Notes under the pieces: generated by a model
What the model was told of the DNA's origin: nothing
The model's database searches: none
The model's input: only the letters and a program-made list of their open reading frames with translations
Shown: positions 24,932 to 56,122 of the stretch, piece by piece
Numbering within the stretch: the first letter of the stretch is position 1
How the letters are laid out: each line of letters opens with the position of its first letter
Position numbers and translations under genes: made by a program
Source of the DNA: Ereboglobus sp. PH5-10
GTDB lineage: Bacteria; Verrucomicrobiota; Verrucomicrobiia; Opitutales; Opitutaceae
Assembly (NCBI RefSeq): GCF_029504735.1
Contig: NZ_JAQFIP010000003.1
Span: forward strand, 186,001-250,000
Direction: 5' to 3'
Length of the DNA stretch: 64,000 nt

Positions 24932-26299
24932 CTAAACCGCGCTTGCCGTGATGAACGCCTTGATCGCGGCGGGGTCGGCCTTGATCTTGTGCTTCACGAG
25001 CGGGCGCGTTTTTAGAATTTCGAGCGCGGGGTCGGTCGGCTCGACGCCGATGGCCTCGCGAATCGTGTCGGGGAATTTCGCCGGGCTCGCCGTCGCGAGC
25101 ACCACGCTGGCGCGGTCACGCGAGAGATCCTTGAAGGCGCATGCCGTGTGCGGATCGACGATGTATCCGAAATCCTGATACACGCGCTTGATGATGCCGG
25201 GGATTTCCGCGTCGTCGCAGCGCGAGGCGCCGAAGGTGTCGCGGTTGAAATTTTCAAACACGTAGCGGCCTGTCGTCTTGAACGCGTGCATGACTTCGCG
25301 CACTTTGGCCGTGTCGCGTCCGAGGCTGTAATAAAGGAAGCGCTCGAAGTTCGACGACACCTGGATGTCCATCGACGGCGCGAGGCTCGGGCGGACATCC
25401 GCCACGCTGTATTCGCCGGTCGTGAAGAGGCGGTGGAGAATGTCGTTCTGGTTTGTGGCGACCTTGAAGCCGCGAATCGGCACGCCCATTTTTTGGAGCA
25501 TCCAACCGGCAAGCACATTTCCAAAATTGCCGGTCGGCACGACAAACTCCGCCGAAGCGCGCGCGCCTTCCGGCAGGCGCAGCCATGCGGACAAATAATA
25601 AACGCATTGAGCGAGCACACGGGCGAGGTTGATCGAATTGACCGCCGACAAATGGTAGCGCGTGCGGAATTCCTGGTCGCCGAAAACATCCTTCAGCGCG
25701 TTTTGCGCGTCGTCGAAAGTGCCGTCGATTGCGAGCGTGAAGACGTTTTTCGCGCCGGTGCAGGCCATCTGGCGCTCCTGCAGCGGCGAGGTGCGCCCGT
25801 CGGGATAAAGGATGAAGATGGCGGTGCCGGGTTTGCCCAAAAGTCCGTGGATGGCGGCGGAGCCAGTGTCGCCGGATGTCGCCCCGAGGACGTTGATCGA
25901 CTCGCCGCGCACACGGCATTGGTGCTCGTAGAGATTGCCGAGCACTTGCAATGCAAAGTCCTTGAACGCGAGCGTGGGGCCGTGAAAAAGTTCGAGCACG
26001 AACAGATCCGGCGAGAGCTGCTTGAGCGGCGCGATTTCGGGAACGGAAAAGGTGGTGTAGGATTTCGCAATGATCGCGCGCAGTGTCTCCTCCGGAATAT
26101 CGGTCGCGAAGTGGCGCAGAAACTCGAAGCACAGCGCGGCGTAGTCGTTTTTCAGCGCGTCGAAGCGCACGAGCTGCGCGTCATCAAACGCGGGCAGCGT
26201 CTCCGGCAGGAACAAACCGCCGTCCGGCGCGAGTCCGGTGGCGACGGCGTCGGAAAATGAGAGTGCCGGAGTTTGTCCGCGTGTGGATGTATAGAGCAT
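24932..26299 (-). CDS. thrC: Threonine synthase
   Basis: A 455-residue PLP enzyme of the longer ThrC class (fold-type II). It begins MLYTSTRGQTPALSFSDAVATGLAPDGGLFLP, the usual N-terminus. The PLP lysine is K113 in FHGPTLAFKDFALQ, followed by GATSGDTGSAAIHG, the phosphate-binding region. It converts O-phospho-L-homoserine to threonine. Together with lysC on the same strand it belongs to the aspartate family pathway. The two genes are separated only by the hairpin element and its four-helix-bundle gene, whose end lies 3 bp upstream of the thrC start codon. Confidence 0.95.
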   Translation of the reverse strand: MLYTSTRGQTPALSFSDAVATGLAPDGGLFLPETLPAFDDAQLVRFDALKNDYAALCFEFLRHFATDIPEETLRAIIAKSYTTFSVPEIAPLKQLSPDLFVLELFHGPTLAFKDFALQVLGNLYEHQCRVRGESINVLGATSGDTGSAAIHGLLGKPGTAIFILYPDGRTSPLQERQMACTGAKNVFTLAIDGTFDDAQNALKDVFGDQEFRTRYHLSAVNSINLARVLAQCVYYLSAWLRLPEGARASAEFVVPTGNFGNVLAGWMLQKMGVPIRGFKVATNQNDILHRLFTTGEYSVADVRPSLAPSMDIQVSSNFERFLYYSLGRDTAKVREVMHAFKTTGRYVFENFNRDTFGASRCDDAEIPGIIKRVYQDFGYIVDPHTACAFKDLSRDRASVVLATASPAKFPDTIREAIGVEPTDPALEILKTRPLVKHKIKADPAAIKAFITASAV

Positions 26300-26302
26300 G
26301 AG

Positions 26303-26840
26303 AAGAAGAGGCCAGAAAACCAGAGGCCAGAGTGCCAGAGGTCGGAAGACGAAGTATTGAAATTAGAAAATTATGTTATGACTGTTTGTCATCGTCGCTC
26401 AATAGGAATGGTTCGGGATTGCGAATCATGCTTCCCAGCATTCGGCCCACTTCCCGAGCCAGTTCCACGTGTTCATCGAATTCAGGTTGATTGATATATC
26501 CGTGACTGCGCGCGAAGCGGAGCCAGTTTTCGGATTCCAGCAATTCGCCGTCGGCATCGGTAAGCTTGCTGATGAAATGAGCTCTGTAGCGTCGCTTGGC
26601 CCATGATTCACAGATGTTGCCACTCACCGAGCGCGCAGACCGGCGAACCTGATCGGTCAGGGCGTAACGTTCTTCGCGCGGCCAGTTTCTGGATAACTCA
26701 AATATGCGACACCCGAAATCGAACGCCTTTTGCCACACAATCAAATCGGTGTAATGGCGAATCAATCCCATGGGTTGTCAATGTTTGGGCATTCTGGCCT
26801 CTGGCTCTCTGGTCTTCTGGCTTTCCGGCCTCTTGCCTTC
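26303..26840. mobile_element. Hairpin-ended element carrying a four-helix-bundle gene
   Basis: The left arm (about 26303-26353) is made of near-tandem ccagaggc/gccagag units. The right arm (about 26791-26840) is its imperfect reverse complement (tctggcctctggctctctgg). Between the arms is a single gene on the minus strand. The element fills nearly all the space between the lysC stop (26845) and the thrC start (26299). Its interior is less GC-rich than the flanks. The same arm sequence recurs without a gene inside smc (39361-39466). No target-site duplication was identified. Mobility is inferred from the inverted arms, the cargo and the dispersed copies. Confidence 0.6.
26376..26771 (-). CDS. 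Four-helix-bundle protein (23S rRNA intervening-sequence/S23-like family)
   Basis: A 131-residue protein. The opening HYTDLIVWQKAFDFGCRIFEL matches the family pattern of an aromatic and VWQKA early in helix 1. It continues with RYALTDQVRRSARSVSGNICE, SKLTDADGELLESENWLRFA and a final helix. Relatives are encoded in intervening sequences of 23S rRNA genes, and the fold is shared with Avd of diversity-generating retroelements. Their biochemical role is poorly defined; nucleic-acid binding is suspected. Here the gene lies inside a hairpin-bounded element between lysC and thrC, and is unlikely to take part in amino-acid synthesis. Confidence 0.85.
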   Translation of the reverse strand: MGLIRHYTDLIVWQKAFDFGCRIFELSRNWPREERYALTDQVRRSARSVSGNICESWAKRRYRAHFISKLTDADGELLESENWLRFARSHGYINQPEFDEHVELAREVGRMLGSMIRNPEPFLLSDDDKQS

Positions 26841-26844
26841 CCCT

Positions 26845-28059
26845 TCACGCGTCGAGTCCGAAGACCTTGTGCGCGATGCGGGCGGCTTCGTCAACGCGCT
26901 CGCTGGAGATGACGACGGATATCTTGATCTCGGAGGTTGTGATCATGTCGATGTTCACGTTCACGTCGGCGAGCGTCTGGAAGAGCGTCGCGGCCACGCC
27001 GCTGTGCGTCTTCATGCCGACTCCGACAACGGACAACTTGGCGATGTCCTCCTGGATCGTCACGTTGCCGCCGCCGATTTCCTCAAGCACGGGGGCGAGC
27101 GTTTGCTGCGCCTTATTGGAGTCAACCTGCGGAACGGTGAAGGAGAGGTTGGCGACGCCGTTGCGGCCCACGTTCTGCACGATCATGTCAACGATGACAT
27201 TCGCGTCGGCCAGGGCGCGAAACACCTTGGCGGCGGAGCCGGGCTTGTCGGCGATGTTGCTGACGGTGACCTTGGCCTGGTCCTTGTCGACGGCGACTCC
27301 GCGCACGACGACTTTTTCCATATACGAGACTTCTTCTTTCACGATTGTTCCTGGGTTGTGGTTAAAGGATGAGCGGACTTCAAAAACGACGCCGTATTTC
27401 TTGGCGAATTCGACCGAGCGGCTTTGCATGACCTTCGAGCCCGACGAGGCGAGCTCGAGCATTTCGTCGTAGGAAATCTCGTCGATTTTTTTCGCGGTTT
27501 TCACAATGCGCGGATCGGCCGTGTAAACGCCGTCAACGTCGGTGTAGATTTCGCATTTGTCGGCCTTGAGCGGCGCGGCGAGCGCGATGGCGGTGAGGTC
27601 CGAGCCGCCGCGGCCGAGCGTGGTGAGCTGGCCCGCGGCGTTGATGCCCTGAAAGCCGGCAACGATGACGACCTTGCCCTGCTTGAGCGCGTCCTCGATT
27701 TGCTTGGGCGTGATGGTCTGTATCTTGGCGCGTGTGTGCGCGTCGTTGGTGAGGATGCCCGCCTGCGCGCCGGTGAAGCTGACCGCGGGCACGCCGAGCG
27801 CGTGCAGGGCCATCGCGGTCAGCGCGATGGTTTCCTGTTCGCCAACCGCGAGGAGCATGTCCATTTCGCGCTCGTTGGGAAGGTCGCTGATGGACTTGGC
27901 GCGCGCGATGAGCTCGTTTGTCACGCCCGAACGGGCTGAGACGACAACGACTACTTCGTTGCCATCGTCGCGGGTGAGTTTGACGCGTTCCGCGACTTTT
28001 TTGATGCGTTCGACGTCACCGACTGAGGTGCCGCCATATTTTTGGACGATGCGTGCCAT
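26845..28059 (-). CDS. lysC: Aspartate kinase
   Basis: A 404-residue protein from the ATG at 28059 (MARIVQKYGGTSVGD). An extension further upstream lacks homology. The amino-acid kinase domain carries KYGGTS at 7-12, VVVSARSGVTNELI and GRGGSDLTAIALA. Two C-terminal ACT domains follow (ITVSN-like element VTVSNIADKPGSAAKVF and a second with VVGVGMKTHSGVAA), as in feedback-regulated single-function aspartokinases. It phosphorylates aspartate as the entry to lysine, threonine and methionine synthesis. It is upstream of the hairpin element and thrC on the same strand, and divergent from the sigma-factor operon. No lysine riboswitch was recognised in the 265 bp leader. Confidence 0.93.
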   Translation of the reverse strand: MARIVQKYGGTSVGDVERIKKVAERVKLTRDDGNEVVVVVSARSGVTNELIARAKSISDLPNEREMDMLLAVGEQETIALTAMALHALGVPAVSFTGAQAGILTNDAHTRAKIQTITPKQIEDALKQGKVVIVAGFQGINAAGQLTTLGRGGSDLTAIALAAPLKADKCEIYTDVDGVYTADPRIVKTAKKIDEISYDEMLELASSGSKVMQSRSVEFAKKYGVVFEVRSSFNHNPGTIVKEEVSYMEKVVVRGVAVDKDQAKVTVSNIADKPGSAAKVFRALADANVIVDMIVQNVGRNGVANLSFTVPQVDSNKAQQTLAPVLEEIGGGNVTIQEDIAKLSVVGVGMKTHSGVAATLFQTLADVNVNIDMITTSEIKISVVISSERVDEAARIAHKVFGLDA

Positions 28060-28324
28060 GTAGGAATAGGGACGAAAGATGAGACTAAAAAACAAGTTTT
28101 GTCCTTCCGGCGAGAGGAAAAACGAGCCGCGCTGAGGCTGGCACGCGAGACGGGGTGCCGTTTGGCACGCGAGGAGGCGGGCGCAACGCTCCATTGCGCA
28201 TGCGCACTCCACTGGTTCCGCGCTCCGCAACACCCCGCCCGCGGACGCGACATCTCATGAAAATAGTAACTTGCGGCTCGCAAAAACCGTCACAGTTCAT
28301 TGTGAATGCTGTTTCGATCAACTT

Positions 28325-37208: not shown

Positions 37209-40200
37209 TTACGCGCCGTTGGATTTTTGCTGTGTGCCGCGGACGGCCTCGGCGATGGTGTCGTCGCTGCCTCGCTGGACTTCGGCGTCGCCGAGTTCCT
37301 TGTTGAAGCGCATCGAGACGGTCTTCGAAACGCCGCGCTCCTCCATCGTCACGCCGTAAATCGCGTCGGCGGCGGCCACCGTGCGCTTGTTGTGCGTGAT
37401 GATGATGAACTGGCTTTCGTTCGTGAAGTGCGAGAGCAGGTCCGTGAAGCGTCCGATGTTGGATTCGTCGAGCGGCGCGTCGAGTTCGTCCAGCAAACAG
37501 AAGGGCGAGGGCTTCACCATGTAGAGCGCGAAGAGGAGCGCGACCGCGGTGAGCGTTTTTTGCCCGCCGGAGAGGAGCGAGATGCCCTTGAGTTTCGTGC
37601 CGGGGGGCTGCGCGGTGATTTCGATGCCGCTTTCGAGCGGGTCGTCGGCTTGCACGAGGTCGAGCGCGGCTTTGCCGCCGCCGAAGAGTTTCGTGAAGGT
37701 GTAGTCGAAGTTCTTTTTGATTTGCTCGAAGGTGATCTGGAACTGCTGCATCGAGGTGTTGTTGATTTCGTCGATGGTTTTCAGGAGTTCGGTTTTCGCG
37801 TTCACGAGGTCGTCGTTTTGCGTCTTGAGGAAGTCGTAGCGTTGCTTGAGCGAGCGGTATTCCTCGATGGCGACGAGGTTCACGTCGCCCATGCTGTTGA
37901 TGCGCTGGCGCAGGCTGGCAACGTCGGAGCGGACTTGGTCCCAGTTGGTGTCGTCGAGCGCGGCGAGGTCTTCCTCGGTGGGATCGCCTTTTTGTTTTTG
38001 TTTGCGGCGACGGCTGCGTTTGGCGGGCTCGGCGGGTGCGGCGGCGGCGGCTTCGGGTTGTTCGGAGGGCGTCGCAAGCGACGCCCCTACGTCGGCAGAC
38101 TCGGATGCGGGCTGATCGGACTGATCGGGCGGAGTGGACTGATCGGATGCGGGTTGCTGATCCTCCGGCTTCTGGCTCTCTGGCGCTCCGGCCTCTGGCT
38201 TCTGGCCTTCCTCTTCGTCTTCGTCGAGGTCGAGATTTTCGATGCCCTCGGGTTCGTCGTCGGCGTGCCAGAGGAGGTTTTTCCAGTCGAGCGTGGTGAT
38301 GTCGGTTTGGAATTCGCGCTCGACTTCCTCCTTGAGAAAATCGGCCCGGGCGCGGCTTTCGGCGAGTTTCACCTCGCACTTGCTGAATTCGTCGTGCGCT
38401 TTTTCCGCCTCGACGCGAAGGCCGTCCTGCGTGCCTTCGACGCCGGTGATTTGTTGCTCGACTTCGACGAGTTGCACGCGGATTTGCTCCACTTGCTGCT
38501 GCGCGACGGTGATGGTTTCGTCGAGTGTTTCGGCGCGGGCGCGCTTGGCGGCCGTCTCGCCTTCGAGGTCCTGGATTTGCTGCGTCCAGAGTTCGATTTC
38601 CTGCTGGCGCTGGATGAGGAGGGTGCCGAGCTCGGCGCGACGGCGTTCCATGTCGGCGATGCCGCGGTCGAGGTAATCGACTTTGCTGCGTTGCTCGGAG
38701 GCGGCGAGGCGGGCGGAGTTGAGGCTTTCGCGCTTGGTGTCACGCTCGACGCGGAGTTCGGCGAGGCGCGTCTCCATTTGCGCGATGCGCTCCTTGCCTT
38801 GCGTGTGAAGGGTTTCGGCCTCGGTGAGCTGGGTTTGCGCTTTTTCCCAGCGGGCGTGGGCCTCGTTGCGCGCGGCTTCGACCGAGGCGGTCTCGGCTTC
38901 CATGCGGCGGAGTTTGTTGGAAATGTCCTCGAGGGTTTTTTGCGCGTTGCGTTGCTCGGCCTGGATGGCGGCGACTTGTTGCGAGATGGCGAGTTCCTCC
39001 TCGCGTTTTTCGGCGAGGGCGGTTTCGGCCTCGGCGATGCGGGCGTTGATGGCGTCGCAGATGGTTTTTTGCTCGTCGTGCGCCTTTTGGTCGTCGGCCA
39101 GGGCGTTGGCGGTTTCGCGCATTTCGTTTTCGCGCTGGACGATGCTGCGGGGGTTTTTCTTGTTGCTGCCGCCGGAGACGAGGCCGCGGCGGTCAACGTA
39201 TTCGCCTTTGCGCGTGGCGACGGCGAGGAAGGGGAAGGCGGGGTTTTGTTTCCAGTAGTCGAGGAAGGCGGCGAGGTCGTCGGCGATGTAGCAGGCGGAG
39301 AGGAGGCCGGCGGCGGGGTGCTGCTCGGCGGCGGTGTTGAGGATTGCGCTGACTGGCGTCAGCCCAGAAGCCAGAGAGCCAGAGGCCAGAGGGCCGGAAG
39401 ATTCCGGATTCTGATTTTCTGTCTTCTGGCTTTCTGGCCTCTGGTCTTCCGGCCTCTGCTTTTCTGTGAGTTCGCCGACGCGGAGGCAGATCGAGCCGGT
39501 TTGGGAGGTCTCGAGGTGGGTGAGGATTTTTTGCGCGGTGGCGAGGTCGGCGACGGTCACGGCCTCGGCGGCGGCGCCGAGGAGGACTTCGATGGCCCTG
39601 GTGTATTCGGGGGCGAAACTGAGGCCGTCCATAATCGCGACGGGACGGGGCGCGCCGTCGAGGATGTTGTCGAGCTGGCCTTGGAGAACGGCTTTCGCGC
39701 CTTCGCCGAAACCCTCGAAGGATTCGTGGAGGCGCTGGAGGACTTGGAGGCGTCCGGAGCGGGTGGTGAGCTGGCGGTCGATTTCGGTGAGGCGGCGCTG
39801 GGCGTCGCGAAATTCGCGGGTGCGGTCGGCGATGGCTTGCTGCGCGTCGCGGGCGTCCTGCTGGGCTCGGGCCTTGGCAACGTGGGCTTCCTCGACGCGC
39901 TGCTCGAACTCGGTGGCGATTTGCGCGGCGGCGCTTTGCTGCTGGCGGACGCCTTCGATTTCGGCGAGGAGGGCTTCGTGGCGGTGGACGGAGGTTTTTT
40001 GGTCAACCTCGTAGCTGGAGCAATCGGTGCGGAGGCGCGCGAGCGTGCTTTCGACTTGGAGGATTTGAAACTTGGATTGCGTGAGTTCCTGCTCGGTGTT
40101 GGCGAGGGAGGCGTCGGCGACGGTGACTTGCTGGATGATTTCCTGGAGCTGCGCCTCGGAGGTGCCGAGGAGGGAGAGCTGGAGTTGTTTGTCCTGCGCG

Positions 40201-41225
40201 CCTGTGTCGACCTGGGTGGCGATGTCGCGGAGCTGCATTTCGAGTTCGCCGAGGGTGGCGCGGGTGGCGTCGAGGCGCTCGATGAGGCCGGTGCGCTTGA
40301 TTTGCGCGAGGTTGGCGGCGTTGAGGATTTGTTCGCGTTCGGTGCGCAGGTCGAAGACGGCTTGCTGGGCTTCCTGCACGCGCTGGTTGAGGCGCGAGCG
40401 GTGGGCTTTTTTCTCCTCGAGGTCCTGCTGTTGTTGCGAGTAGTGGACGCGGCGGGTTTCGGAGGCGGCGCGGAGTTTGACGACTTGCTCGTCGAGCTCG
40501 GCAAGCGTGGCGGTGATTTTGCCGTGCTGGTGGCCGCTGTGCGCGAGGGCGAGGTGGCGGAGGCGGTGCGAGACTCGCTTGTAGCGAAGGGCCTTCGAGG
40601 CCTGGCGGCGCAGGGAGCCGATCTGGCGTCCGACCTCGGTGATGACGTCGGAGACGCGGGCGAGGTTGGTGTCGGTGAGGGCGAGTTTTTGGAGGGCTTC
40701 GCGGCGCTGGCTTTTGTATTTGGTGATGCCGGCGGCTTCCTCAAACACGGCGCGGCGCTCCTCGGGTTTGGAGGAGAGGATCTGGTCGATCTGGCCCTGC
40801 GCCATGATCGAGTAGGACGTGCGGCCGATGCCGGTGTCCATGAAAAGCTTGTGGATGTCCTTGAGCCGGCAGGGGGTGTTGTTGAAGAAGTATTCGCTGC
40901 CGCCGTCGCGATGGACGCGACGCATGATTTCGATTTCGTGGAACTGGCTGCCGAGTTGTTTTTCGCAGTCGGTGAGAAGCAGCGAGACTTCGCACATTTG
41001 CGAAGGTTTGCGGGTGTCGGCGCCCTCGAAAATGACGTCCTGCATTTTGCCGCCGCGGAGAGCCTTTGCGCTTTGCTCGCCGAGAACCCAGCGGATGGCG
41101 TCGGCGATGTTGGACTTGCCACAGCCGTTGGGGCCGACGACAGCGGTCACGCCGCGTTCGAAGTCGAGTGTGGATGGATCAGCAAAAGATTTAAAGCCGT
41201 GCAGTTTGAGTGCCTTGAGATACAT
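37209..41225 (-). CDS. smc: Chromosome partition/condensin protein SMC with repeat-derived insertions
   Basis: A 1338-residue protein from the ATG at 41225 (MYLKALKLHGFKSFADP). The N-terminal ATPase half has Walker A GPNGCGKSN (31-39). Long coiled coils flank a hinge near residues 520-680. The C-terminal half has the signature LLSGGQK and Walker B FCLLDELDAPLDESN. It forms the ring of bacterial condensin with ScpA/ScpB and organises the chromosome. It is longer than the usual ~1190 residues. Part of the excess is two low-complexity insertions: residues ~585-621 in the hinge region and ~1000-1053 near the C-terminal head. Both are encoded by dispersed repeat DNA. The strand opposite is also open over the full length because of codon bias. 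Confidence 0.96.
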   Translation of the reverse strand: MYLKALKLHGFKSFADPSTLDFERGVTAVVGPNGCGKSNIADAIRWVLGEQSAKALRGGKMQDVIFEGADTRKPSQMCEVSLLLTDCEKQLGSQFHEIEIMRRVHRDGGSEYFFNNTPCRLKDIHKLFMDTGIGRTSYSIMAQGQIDQILSSKPEERRAVFEEAAGITKYKSQRREALQKLALTDTNLARVSDVITEVGRQIGSLRRQASKALRYKRVSHRLRHLALAHSGHQHGKITATLAELDEQVVKLRAASETRRVHYSQQQQDLEEKKAHRSRLNQRVQEAQQAVFDLRTEREQILNAANLAQIKRTGLIERLDATRATLGELEMQLRDIATQVDTGAQDKQLQLSLLGTSEAQLQEIIQQVTVADASLANTEQELTQSKFQILQVESTLARLRTDCSSYEVDQKTSVHRHEALLAEIEGVRQQQSAAAQIATEFEQRVEEAHVAKARAQQDARDAQQAIADRTREFRDAQRRLTEIDRQLTTRSGRLQVLQRLHESFEGFGEGAKAVLQGQLDNILDGAPRPVAIMDGLSFAPEYTRAIEVLLGAAAEAVTVADLATAQKILTHLETSQTGSICLRVGELTEKQRPEDQRPESQKTENQNPESSGPLASGSLASGLTPVSAILNTAAEQHPAAGLLSACYIADDLAAFLDYWKQNPAFPFLAVATRKGEYVDRRGLVSGGSNKKNPRSIVQRENEMRETANALADDQKAHDEQKTICDAINARIAEAETALAEKREEELAISQQVAAIQAEQRNAQKTLEDISNKLRRMEAETASVEAARNEAHARWEKAQTQLTEAETLHTQGKERIAQMETRLAELRVERDTKRESLNSARLAASEQRSKVDYLDRGIADMERRRAELGTLLIQRQQEIELWTQQIQDLEGETAAKRARAETLDETITVAQQQVEQIRVQLVEVEQQITGVEGTQDGLRVEAEKAHDEFSKCEVKLAESRARADFLKEEVEREFQTDITTLDWKNLLWHADDEPEGIENLDLDEDEEEGQKPEAGAPESQKPEDQQPASDQSTPPDQSDQPASESADVGASLATPSEQPEAAAAAPAEPAKRSRRRKQKQKGDPTEEDLAALDDTNWDQVRSDVASLRQRINSMGDVNLVAIEEYRSLKQRYDFLKTQNDDLVNAKTELLKTIDEINNTSMQQFQITFEQIKKNFDYTFTKLFGGGKAALDLVQADDPLESGIEITAQPPGTKLKGISLLSGGQKTLTAVALLFALYMVKPSPFCLLDELDAPLDESNIGRFTDLLSHFTNESQFIIITHNKRTVAAADAIYGVTMEERGVSKTVSMRFNKELGDAEVQRGSDDTIAEAVRGTQQKSNGA
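38066..38210. repeat. Three repeat types forming a linker in smc
   Basis: From left to right there is a REP-like palindrome (38066-38090: gggcgtcgc aag gcgacgccc, ending in ctac), then near-tandem gactgatcgg units (about 38100-38155), then ggcttctggc/tctctggcgctcc units (about 38163-38210). All are in frame. The protein product is a flexible stretch rich in Asp, Ser, Glu, Gln and Pro just before the DWDQVRSDVASLRQRI-like start of the C-terminal head. Confidence 0.75.
39361..39466. repeat. Inverted hairpin repeat in the smc hinge
   Basis: The left arm (about 39363-39402) consists of ccagaagccagagagccag-like units. The right arm (39421-39466) is the imperfect reverse complement (ttctggctttctggcctctgg). 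About 20 nt separate them. The repeat family is the same as the arms of the element at 26303-26840. Translation in the smc frame gives a Gln/Pro/Glu/Ser-rich insertion without a stop, between LRVGELTEKQ and LTPVSAI. Confidence 0.8.
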
Positions 41226-41333
41226 GAAAATGAAGCCCGCTAATGGAGCGGACGCTTTCTTGCTCGGCAAACGGAAAATTCACACACACGCGGGAAATTG
41301 TTCACATTGCCCGCGCACCCGCCGGCTTGCGCG

Positions 41334-56010: not shown

Positions 56011-56122
56011 GATTTTCGATTTTCGATTCTCGATTTTCGATTGCGCGCTTCCGCGCGTGCCCGAAATCGAAAACGGAGCGGTAGCTCCCAATCGAAAATC
56101 GAGAATCGAAAATCGAAAATTT
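56011..56122. repeat. Long inverted repeat (tcgatttt family) in the importer operon
   Basis: Arms 56011-56042 and 56091-56122 are ~31 bp and nearly perfect reverse complements, made of near-tandem gattttcg/attctcg units. A ~48-nt loop contains smaller palindromes. The repeat starts 3 bp after the substrate-binding gene stop and ends 4 bp before the permease ATG. Confidence 0.85.

Follow-up and report, generated by a model that had tools for sequence, protein, structure and literature searches.

The window, a 64,000-nt stretch of the genome of Ereboglobus sp. PH5-10, holds a small element between lysC (aspartate kinase; minus strand, 26845..28062) and thrC (threonine synthase; minus strand, 24932..26299), its operon-upstream and operon-downstream flanks, both identified by profile matches. 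The sole gene of the element (minus strand, 26376..26771) encodes a four-helix-bundle protein of the S23 / 23S_rRNA_IVP family and lies in sense to both lysC and thrC. It is enclosed by terminal inverted repeats. The 5' arm, in the sense of the gene, is made of tandem 7-8 nt units of the AGAGGCC/GCCAGAR type (minus strand, 26788..26840), and the 3' arm of the reverse complement of such units (minus strand, 26303..26348). The core of the arms (26309-26336 and 26788-26815) is 28 nt long and 86% complementary, and by eye the tandem 7-8 nt units run on to about 26303-26348 and 26788-26840. The element begins 3 nt from the start codon of thrC (26299) and ends 4 nt from the stop codon of lysC (26845), so that the arms and the spacing described in an earlier note on this DNA proved to be real. 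It is located outside rRNA, and Rfam gave no match over 26000-27100.

In profile searches, the protein (131 residues) matched PF05635 (E 7e-31; 107 bits for a curated cut-off of 33.8), TIGR02436 (E 1e-29; 102.6 bits for a cut-off of 24) and bAvd PF22296 (E 1e-12), as expected from the proposal that the cargo is a single four-helix-bundle gene of the 23S rRNA IVP/Avd-like kind. An AlphaFold2 model of its 110-residue domain consisted of four helices (pLDDT 98). With this model, Foldseek found 2GSC (E 2.4e-5) and 2RLD (E 5.8e-5) as the nearest folds, followed by the phage Avd 4DWL (E 0.018, TM 0.82); the model is thus a four-helix bundle like 2GSC, and the family profile also matched 2GSC (E 3e-34). 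While the fold resembles that of the Avd protein of diversity-generating retroelements, the profile match was weak, reaching 43.4 of the 80 bits of the Avd equivalog cut-off, and what lies between the arms is a lone gene and not a reverse transcriptase. The element encodes no transposase, and no recombinase or polymerase either. There was no sign of an anti-phage defence gene, none of the PADLOC families matching the protein at E <= 0.1.

We determined whether arms of this kind accompany related genes in the same genome (G000; in what follows G and L numbers designate genomes and loci). PF05635 had nine matches in G000, and inverted arrays were found directly outside the gene in seven of them (L001-L006, L008). 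The units differed from one to the next: GGAGTCA, AGAGGCC, GRGTGAA, GATTTTG, GATTTTC and, in two elements, a CCAAATT type. The other two (L007, L009), which are partial PF05635 matches in long ORFs, had no inverted arrays. In the family, 51 of 61 sampled genomes had a PF05635 match; 115 loci were examined among the matches listed, and complete flanks were available for 117 distinct gene sequences. The arms aligned with a score of at least 18 at 97 of the 117 loci, far beyond chance (13% for mismatched pairs and 11% at random positions), and with a score of at least 25 at 49 (1.3 and 0.4%, respectively), the loci being not all independent because some are orthologues at one site. Among lags of 5-12, the best was 7 in 92 of 117 upstream and 85 of 117 downstream flanks, while control stretches 740-900 nt away gave 9 of 115 on either side.

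Similar results were obtained outside the family. Relatives were listed in Nitrospirota, Bacteroidota, Clostridia, Planctomycetota, Pseudomonadota, Acidobacteriota, candidate phyla, a Nostoc plasmid and others. The sample consisted of the best 80 of at least 582 relatives in species genomes, and it leans to relatives of the family because the scan pattern was built from family members. In these best 80 of at least 582, the arm score was at least 18 at 72 loci (mismatched pairs, 6.9%), and 7 was the best of the lags 4-15 in 48 and 52 of the 80 flanks, lags 8 and 14 coming next. In viral contigs, the score was at least 18 at 17 of 23 loci, which represent 20 distinct proteins (mismatched pairs, 4.5%). 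Phage records queried with the L010 protein gave no match, yet these 23 viral contigs hold a relative. In four plasmid records, heptad-like runs could be recognised by eye next to the gene, on one side or on both. Scores below 18 were found at 20 of 117 family loci, 8 of 80 cross-phylum loci and 6 of 23 viral loci, L007 and L009 being among them. In two of the viral contigs (L230, L231) the downstream sequence is common to both, and L231 also contains a tandem second copy of the gene, joined via one shared arm.

Beyond what the earlier note described, the arms are thus heptad arrays whose unit is specific to the element. Strong arrays were present in both arms at 77 of 220 loci, and these were used to compare one arm with the other. 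The unit of one arm was the reverse complement of the other, with at most one mismatch, in 59 of the 77, as compared with 175 of 5000 comparisons between elements (3.5%); in direct orientation, the units agreed in only 5 of the 77. The 229 arrays comprised 139 distinct units, which led us to reject a universal arm sequence; the expectation that other such genes would be flanked by the same arms therefore did not hold, the architecture being the same but the 7-mers mostly different. When aligned in phase, the units showed an A (92%) followed by a G (72%) and were poor in C (likelihood -1585 versus -1680 +/- 18 for shuffled units). A typical arm measures about 32 nt and has 4-5 units; arrays were 4 or 5 units long in 143 of 198 cases, and, read inward, contained more G than C in 179 of 198. 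Mismatches between the arms were less often of the G.U type (217) than of the A.C type (278), so that this test of sense-RNA structure was negative and selection on a sense-RNA stem is unsupported.

Pairs of proteins at unrelated sites had the same unit in 13 of 15 cases at 80% identity or more, in 4 of 10 at 70-80%, in 22 of 84 at 60-70%, and in 1-4% from 20 to 60%. With so few shared units at 20-60% identity, no fixed code linking protein to arm is visible below 60%. Two elements 5 kb apart on one contig (L192, L208) were 96% identical in DNA over gene and arms, with flanks that were unrelated except for short repeat matches; a second pair (L024, L025) was 77% identical in DNA, again with unrelated flanks. 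Judging from such sequence comparisons, gene and arms travel jointly and then diverge.

Further evidence came from copies devoid of a gene. We surveyed 1.08 Mb of G000, i.e. six contigs chosen because they hold a family match, and found 68 arrays at lag 7, 40 at lag 14, 20 at lag 8, and 1-9 at each of the other lags from 4 to 15; a triplet-shuffled control had none at lag 7. Pairs of arrays within 700 nt were inverted in 19 cases, among them three elements with a gene and a few pairings across neighbouring copies, and direct in 3. Outside gene-bearing elements, 64 of 91 arrays matched the unit of one of the genome's own elements with at most one mismatch (53 exactly), as compared with a mean of 11.6 and a maximum of 39 in 2000 draws of seven random units from other family members; the remaining 27 matched no own unit. 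Eleven gene-less copies of 109-133 nt carried the terminal repeat of L005 (L005/L004). One of these, in the window at 56011..56120, has ATTTTCG arms and the same terminal repeat as the L005 element on contig C1; it is located in the gap separating one stop codon from the start codon that follows, is also present in a close species (G002), and has ten sister copies in the 1.08 Mb. No target-site duplication was found by eye in the eleven copies; such duplications are not made by all types of elements. Terminal repeats common to gene-less and gene-bearing copies were observed both here and in the GGGACCC genomes described below, and the dispersed copies are consistent with MITE-like, non-autonomous derivatives of a mobile element.

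The window also contains a gene-less CCAGAGR-type hairpin inside an smc-like gene (39364..39466), where G002 has unrelated sequence, and, in the same gene, a single array of the CTCTGGC/CTTCTGG type (38163..38206) that is found in G002 too. Hairpin and array are both translated in frame within this gene (37209-41270, minus strand) as a low-complexity linker.

Comparison with G002 showed that three gene-less copies of G000 were missing there at sites that were otherwise 95-97% identical, with imprecise boundaries, and that a fourth site was occupied by a different hairpin. Since the empty sites of G002 also differ by tens of nucleotides beside the insert, the ends are approximate and the change may have gone in either direction. 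At the L005 site, G002 has a gene (L075) whose protein is 59% identical, with other arms and near-identical wider flanks; in the two neighbouring genes, which we read as ABC-transporter genes, the closest tens of nucleotides have diverged too. This divergence could result from recombination with a divergent donor.

A second clade, the family of L198 (149 genomes, 28 gene loci read), provided a further set of units. PF05635 was found in 64 of the 149 genomes and (GGGAATC)3 in 46. The gene was present in 36 of the 46 genomes with (GGGAATC)3 versus 28 of the 103 without (Fisher p 9e-9, uncorrected for phylogeny), ten of the 46 having no PF05635 match. GGGACCC arms were read at three of the 28 loci (G121, G150, G205), and (GGGACCC)3, which occurred in 11 genomes, had 36, 46 and 55 copies in these three and at most 5 elsewhere. 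Similarly, (GGGACTC)3 was found in 28 genomes, with 187 copies in G149, 58 in G199 and 48 in G186, which correspond to the three read loci with GGGACTC arms; it was also abundant in G090 (155), G121 (117) and G069 (59), the last of which has no PF05635 match. The correspondence was looser in G081, which has 209 copies of (GGGAATC)3 and a gene with GGGATTC arms, and in G121, where 117 copies of (GGGACTC)3 accompany a gene with GGGACCC arms (one of its two genes was read). The reversed (GGGACTC)3 pattern, run as a control, turned out to be an unplanned check: all of its 62 matches were in G098, where the gene is flanked by AGGGCTC arms.

Twenty GGGACCC stretches were fetched; by eye they were mostly hairpins with 3-4 units a side and variable, apparently unrelated spacers, and one of them (L308) was the element of G150 that contains the gene. 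Within the genus of G150, 20 genomes were compared at a single intergenic site. It held a GGGACCC hairpin in three, a GGGACTC-type hairpin with another spacer in five, a left-side array only in six, no array in two, and other forms in four.

We also analysed the lysC-thrC junction. thrC adjoined lysC at 23 of 31 lysC loci. In 16 of the 23 adjacent pairs the gap was only 8-156 nt, so that junctions without the insert, for which the earlier note had suggested a search, do exist; a four-helix-bundle gene filled six gaps (one of them broken, L057) and other ORFs one. By coordinates, the gene directly followed lysC in three more genomes. Arrays were visible in all nine lysC-linked cases, with a GGACAGA-type unit in G061, so that an arm-less ancestral state of the gene at this junction found no support. 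In the protein tree, the lysC-linked members of this and other genera (eight proteins, including one identical pair) clustered, with 2 label changes where shuffled labels required 7.8 and none of 500 shufflings was as low. This clustering across genera led us to reject a recent clean insertion and identifies the copy in the window as an old resident. The observation made in the earlier note is thus confirmed and its interpretation partly supported: a mobile minimal element is borne out for the kind, through the joint duplications of gene and arms, the dispersed gene-less copies and the empty sites, but not as a fresh clean insertion at this site.

Some other gaps deserve mention. In G051, the gap downstream of lysC (L041, 2715-2899) contains a different long GC-rich palindrome that is not built of heptads; the 556-nt lysC-thrC gap of G035 (L054) holds two short ORFs that are unrelated and may form a small gene pair; and in two other genera the gap (108 nt in L050, 156 nt in L063) contains gene-less palindromes that are possible remnants. 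From a reading of the translated ends, genes of the second clade lie in carA-carB, accB-accC and glyA-nrdR gaps. In two betaproteobacterial loci (L170 and L202, about position 2400), the gene is found just before an apparent guaA, another possible operon-gap site. rRNA motifs were scarce in the fetched loci (8 single-motif matches in 7 of 414, two different motifs in none), and these matches were treated as chance, the two beside a gene (L170, L202) being in the apparent guaA. Strand context was taken from homology-checked sites only; the longest ORFs at 240 loci gave 67 ++, 74 −−, 89 mixed and 10 undetermined, and antisense ORFs were often picked.

REP/BIME sequences with their RAYT, and classical MITEs, are small, palindromic, dispersed elements with gene-bearing and gene-less forms. 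Compared with these, the arms described here are tandem heptads and the linked gene is no transposase. A closer parallel is provided by the intervening sequences (IVS) of 23S/16S rRNA with an S23p ORF, such as that of Coxiella burnetii, of about 430 nt, for which the available text of PMC4990558 describes an S23p ORF, a 28-bp terminal stem and, before the ORF, tandem GACAGAT heptamers of variable copy number. According to the same text, rRNA IVS with an S23p ORF are sporadic and held to spread horizontally. The window element has in common with them the protein family, the terminal inverted repeats and the tandem heptamers (PMC4990558, as available), but it resides in the gap of a protein-gene operon, and its own kind has dispersed gene-less copies; furthermore, in its available portions PMC4990558 presents the heptamers as direct repeats preceding the ORF rather than as the arms of a mobile class. 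Because the Coxiella IVS combines the same protein family with a 28-bp stem and heptamers, we read the rRNA IVS as a niche of the present class.

The GGGAATC repeats of Xanthomonas and the GGGGAYT repeats of Nostoc have been described as G-quadruplex repeats; the arrays mostly have four units, form 70-75 convergent (inverted) pairs per Xanthomonas genome and are mostly intergenic, nearer the end of the upstream gene (PMC4692102, available text). The gene-less hairpins of the second clade match these inverted pairs. The terms 'four helix' and 'S23' are absent from the available text of PMC4692102, in which these terms thus revealed no link to the present gene. More generally, in the accessible parts of the open-licence PMC literature (including PMC4679880, PMC4692102 and PMC5896051), we found no earlier link between S23/four-helix-bundle genes and heptad arms beyond the heptamers of one IVS in PMC4990558.

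Our preferred explanation, with a probability of about 0.7, is that mobile elements formed by inverted 7-nt arrays and a lone S23/IVP four-helix-bundle gene are very widespread in bacteria, and that the insert is one of their resident copies. On the side of observation stand the architecture, its recurrence across phyla, the match between arms, gene-less copies with the genome's own units, sites that are empty or differently filled, and duplications of unit and gene together. Alternatively, the heptad hairpins might form a non-autonomous element of their own, mobilised by some enzyme of the host or of a transposon, and the gene would be a passenger that they often enclose. Such hairpins outnumber the genes, ten of the 46 GGGAATC-positive genomes and G069 (59 GGGACTC arrays) lack the gene, and the spacers of the GGGACCC gene-less copies are by eye mostly unlike each other and unlike the gene; yet the gene lay between arms at most loci of all groups tested, far above chance, and the dispersed unit is that of the genome's own gene. 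We regard this explanation as unlikely.

Slightly more doubtful is an element acting at the RNA level, whose transcript would be excised at the arm stem, as in the rRNA IVS, and re-inserted via reverse transcription; the partner bound by the Avd-like protein would be RNA or a reverse transcriptase. The negative sense-RNA wobble test, whose direction was the opposite of that expected, and the absence of an Rfam match in 26000-27100 argue against it, while the similarity to Avd in fold and profile, the sense operon-gap position at lysC-thrC (and, from the translated ends, at carA-carB, at accB-accC and before guaA), and the RNase III excision of IVS published in PMC4990558 (available text) are in its favour. 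Very improbable, finally, is that nothing here moves, the arms being slippage repeats kept as an mRNA-processing or insulating hairpin and the gene a vertically inherited member of the operon. This would agree with the persistence of the site at lysC-thrC and elsewhere, with the clustering of the lysC-linked genes, and with a survey, cited in the available text of PMC4679880, that reports heptads as more abundant than any other repeat class in most of its genomes, but not with the agreement of units across unlinked copies within a genome, nor with sites that are empty or filled by another element in close species, nor with the duplications.

If the mobile-element reading is retained, the protein would oligomerise like its solved relatives, and the oligomer would bind the heptad arms as a hairpin, single-stranded DNA or RNA. 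The bound arms may then mark full and gene-less copies alike for copying by host enzymes. We propose that dependence on transcription by the host is what places the element in operon gaps. Elements of this kind that settled in rRNA would be the 23S rRNA IVS, and at lysC-thrC the element would have kept its position as the units of both arms were replaced in a concerted way (CCAGAGR type here, GGACAGA type in G061). Taken jointly, and only tentatively, since we think it improbable that every part of it holds, this would amount to a new class of bacterial mobile elements that encode a single protein, and one other than a recombinase. Its four-helix-bundle protomers would assemble into a ring in which each protomer recognises one heptad of the array (4-5 units to an arm, with an A-G core in every unit), similar to the reading of spaced KAG triplets by the TRAP ring. 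With the other bases nearly free, each genome would come to have its private 7-letter word, which may be the source of the bacterial heptamer excess, the rRNA IVS being one niche.

If true, the finding would join three subjects: the S23/IVP proteins, which have solved structures, the rRNA IVS, and the predominance of 7-nt repeats in bacteria. Heptamer repeats described as 'regulatory' or as G-quadruplex repeats may then be remnants of mobile elements.
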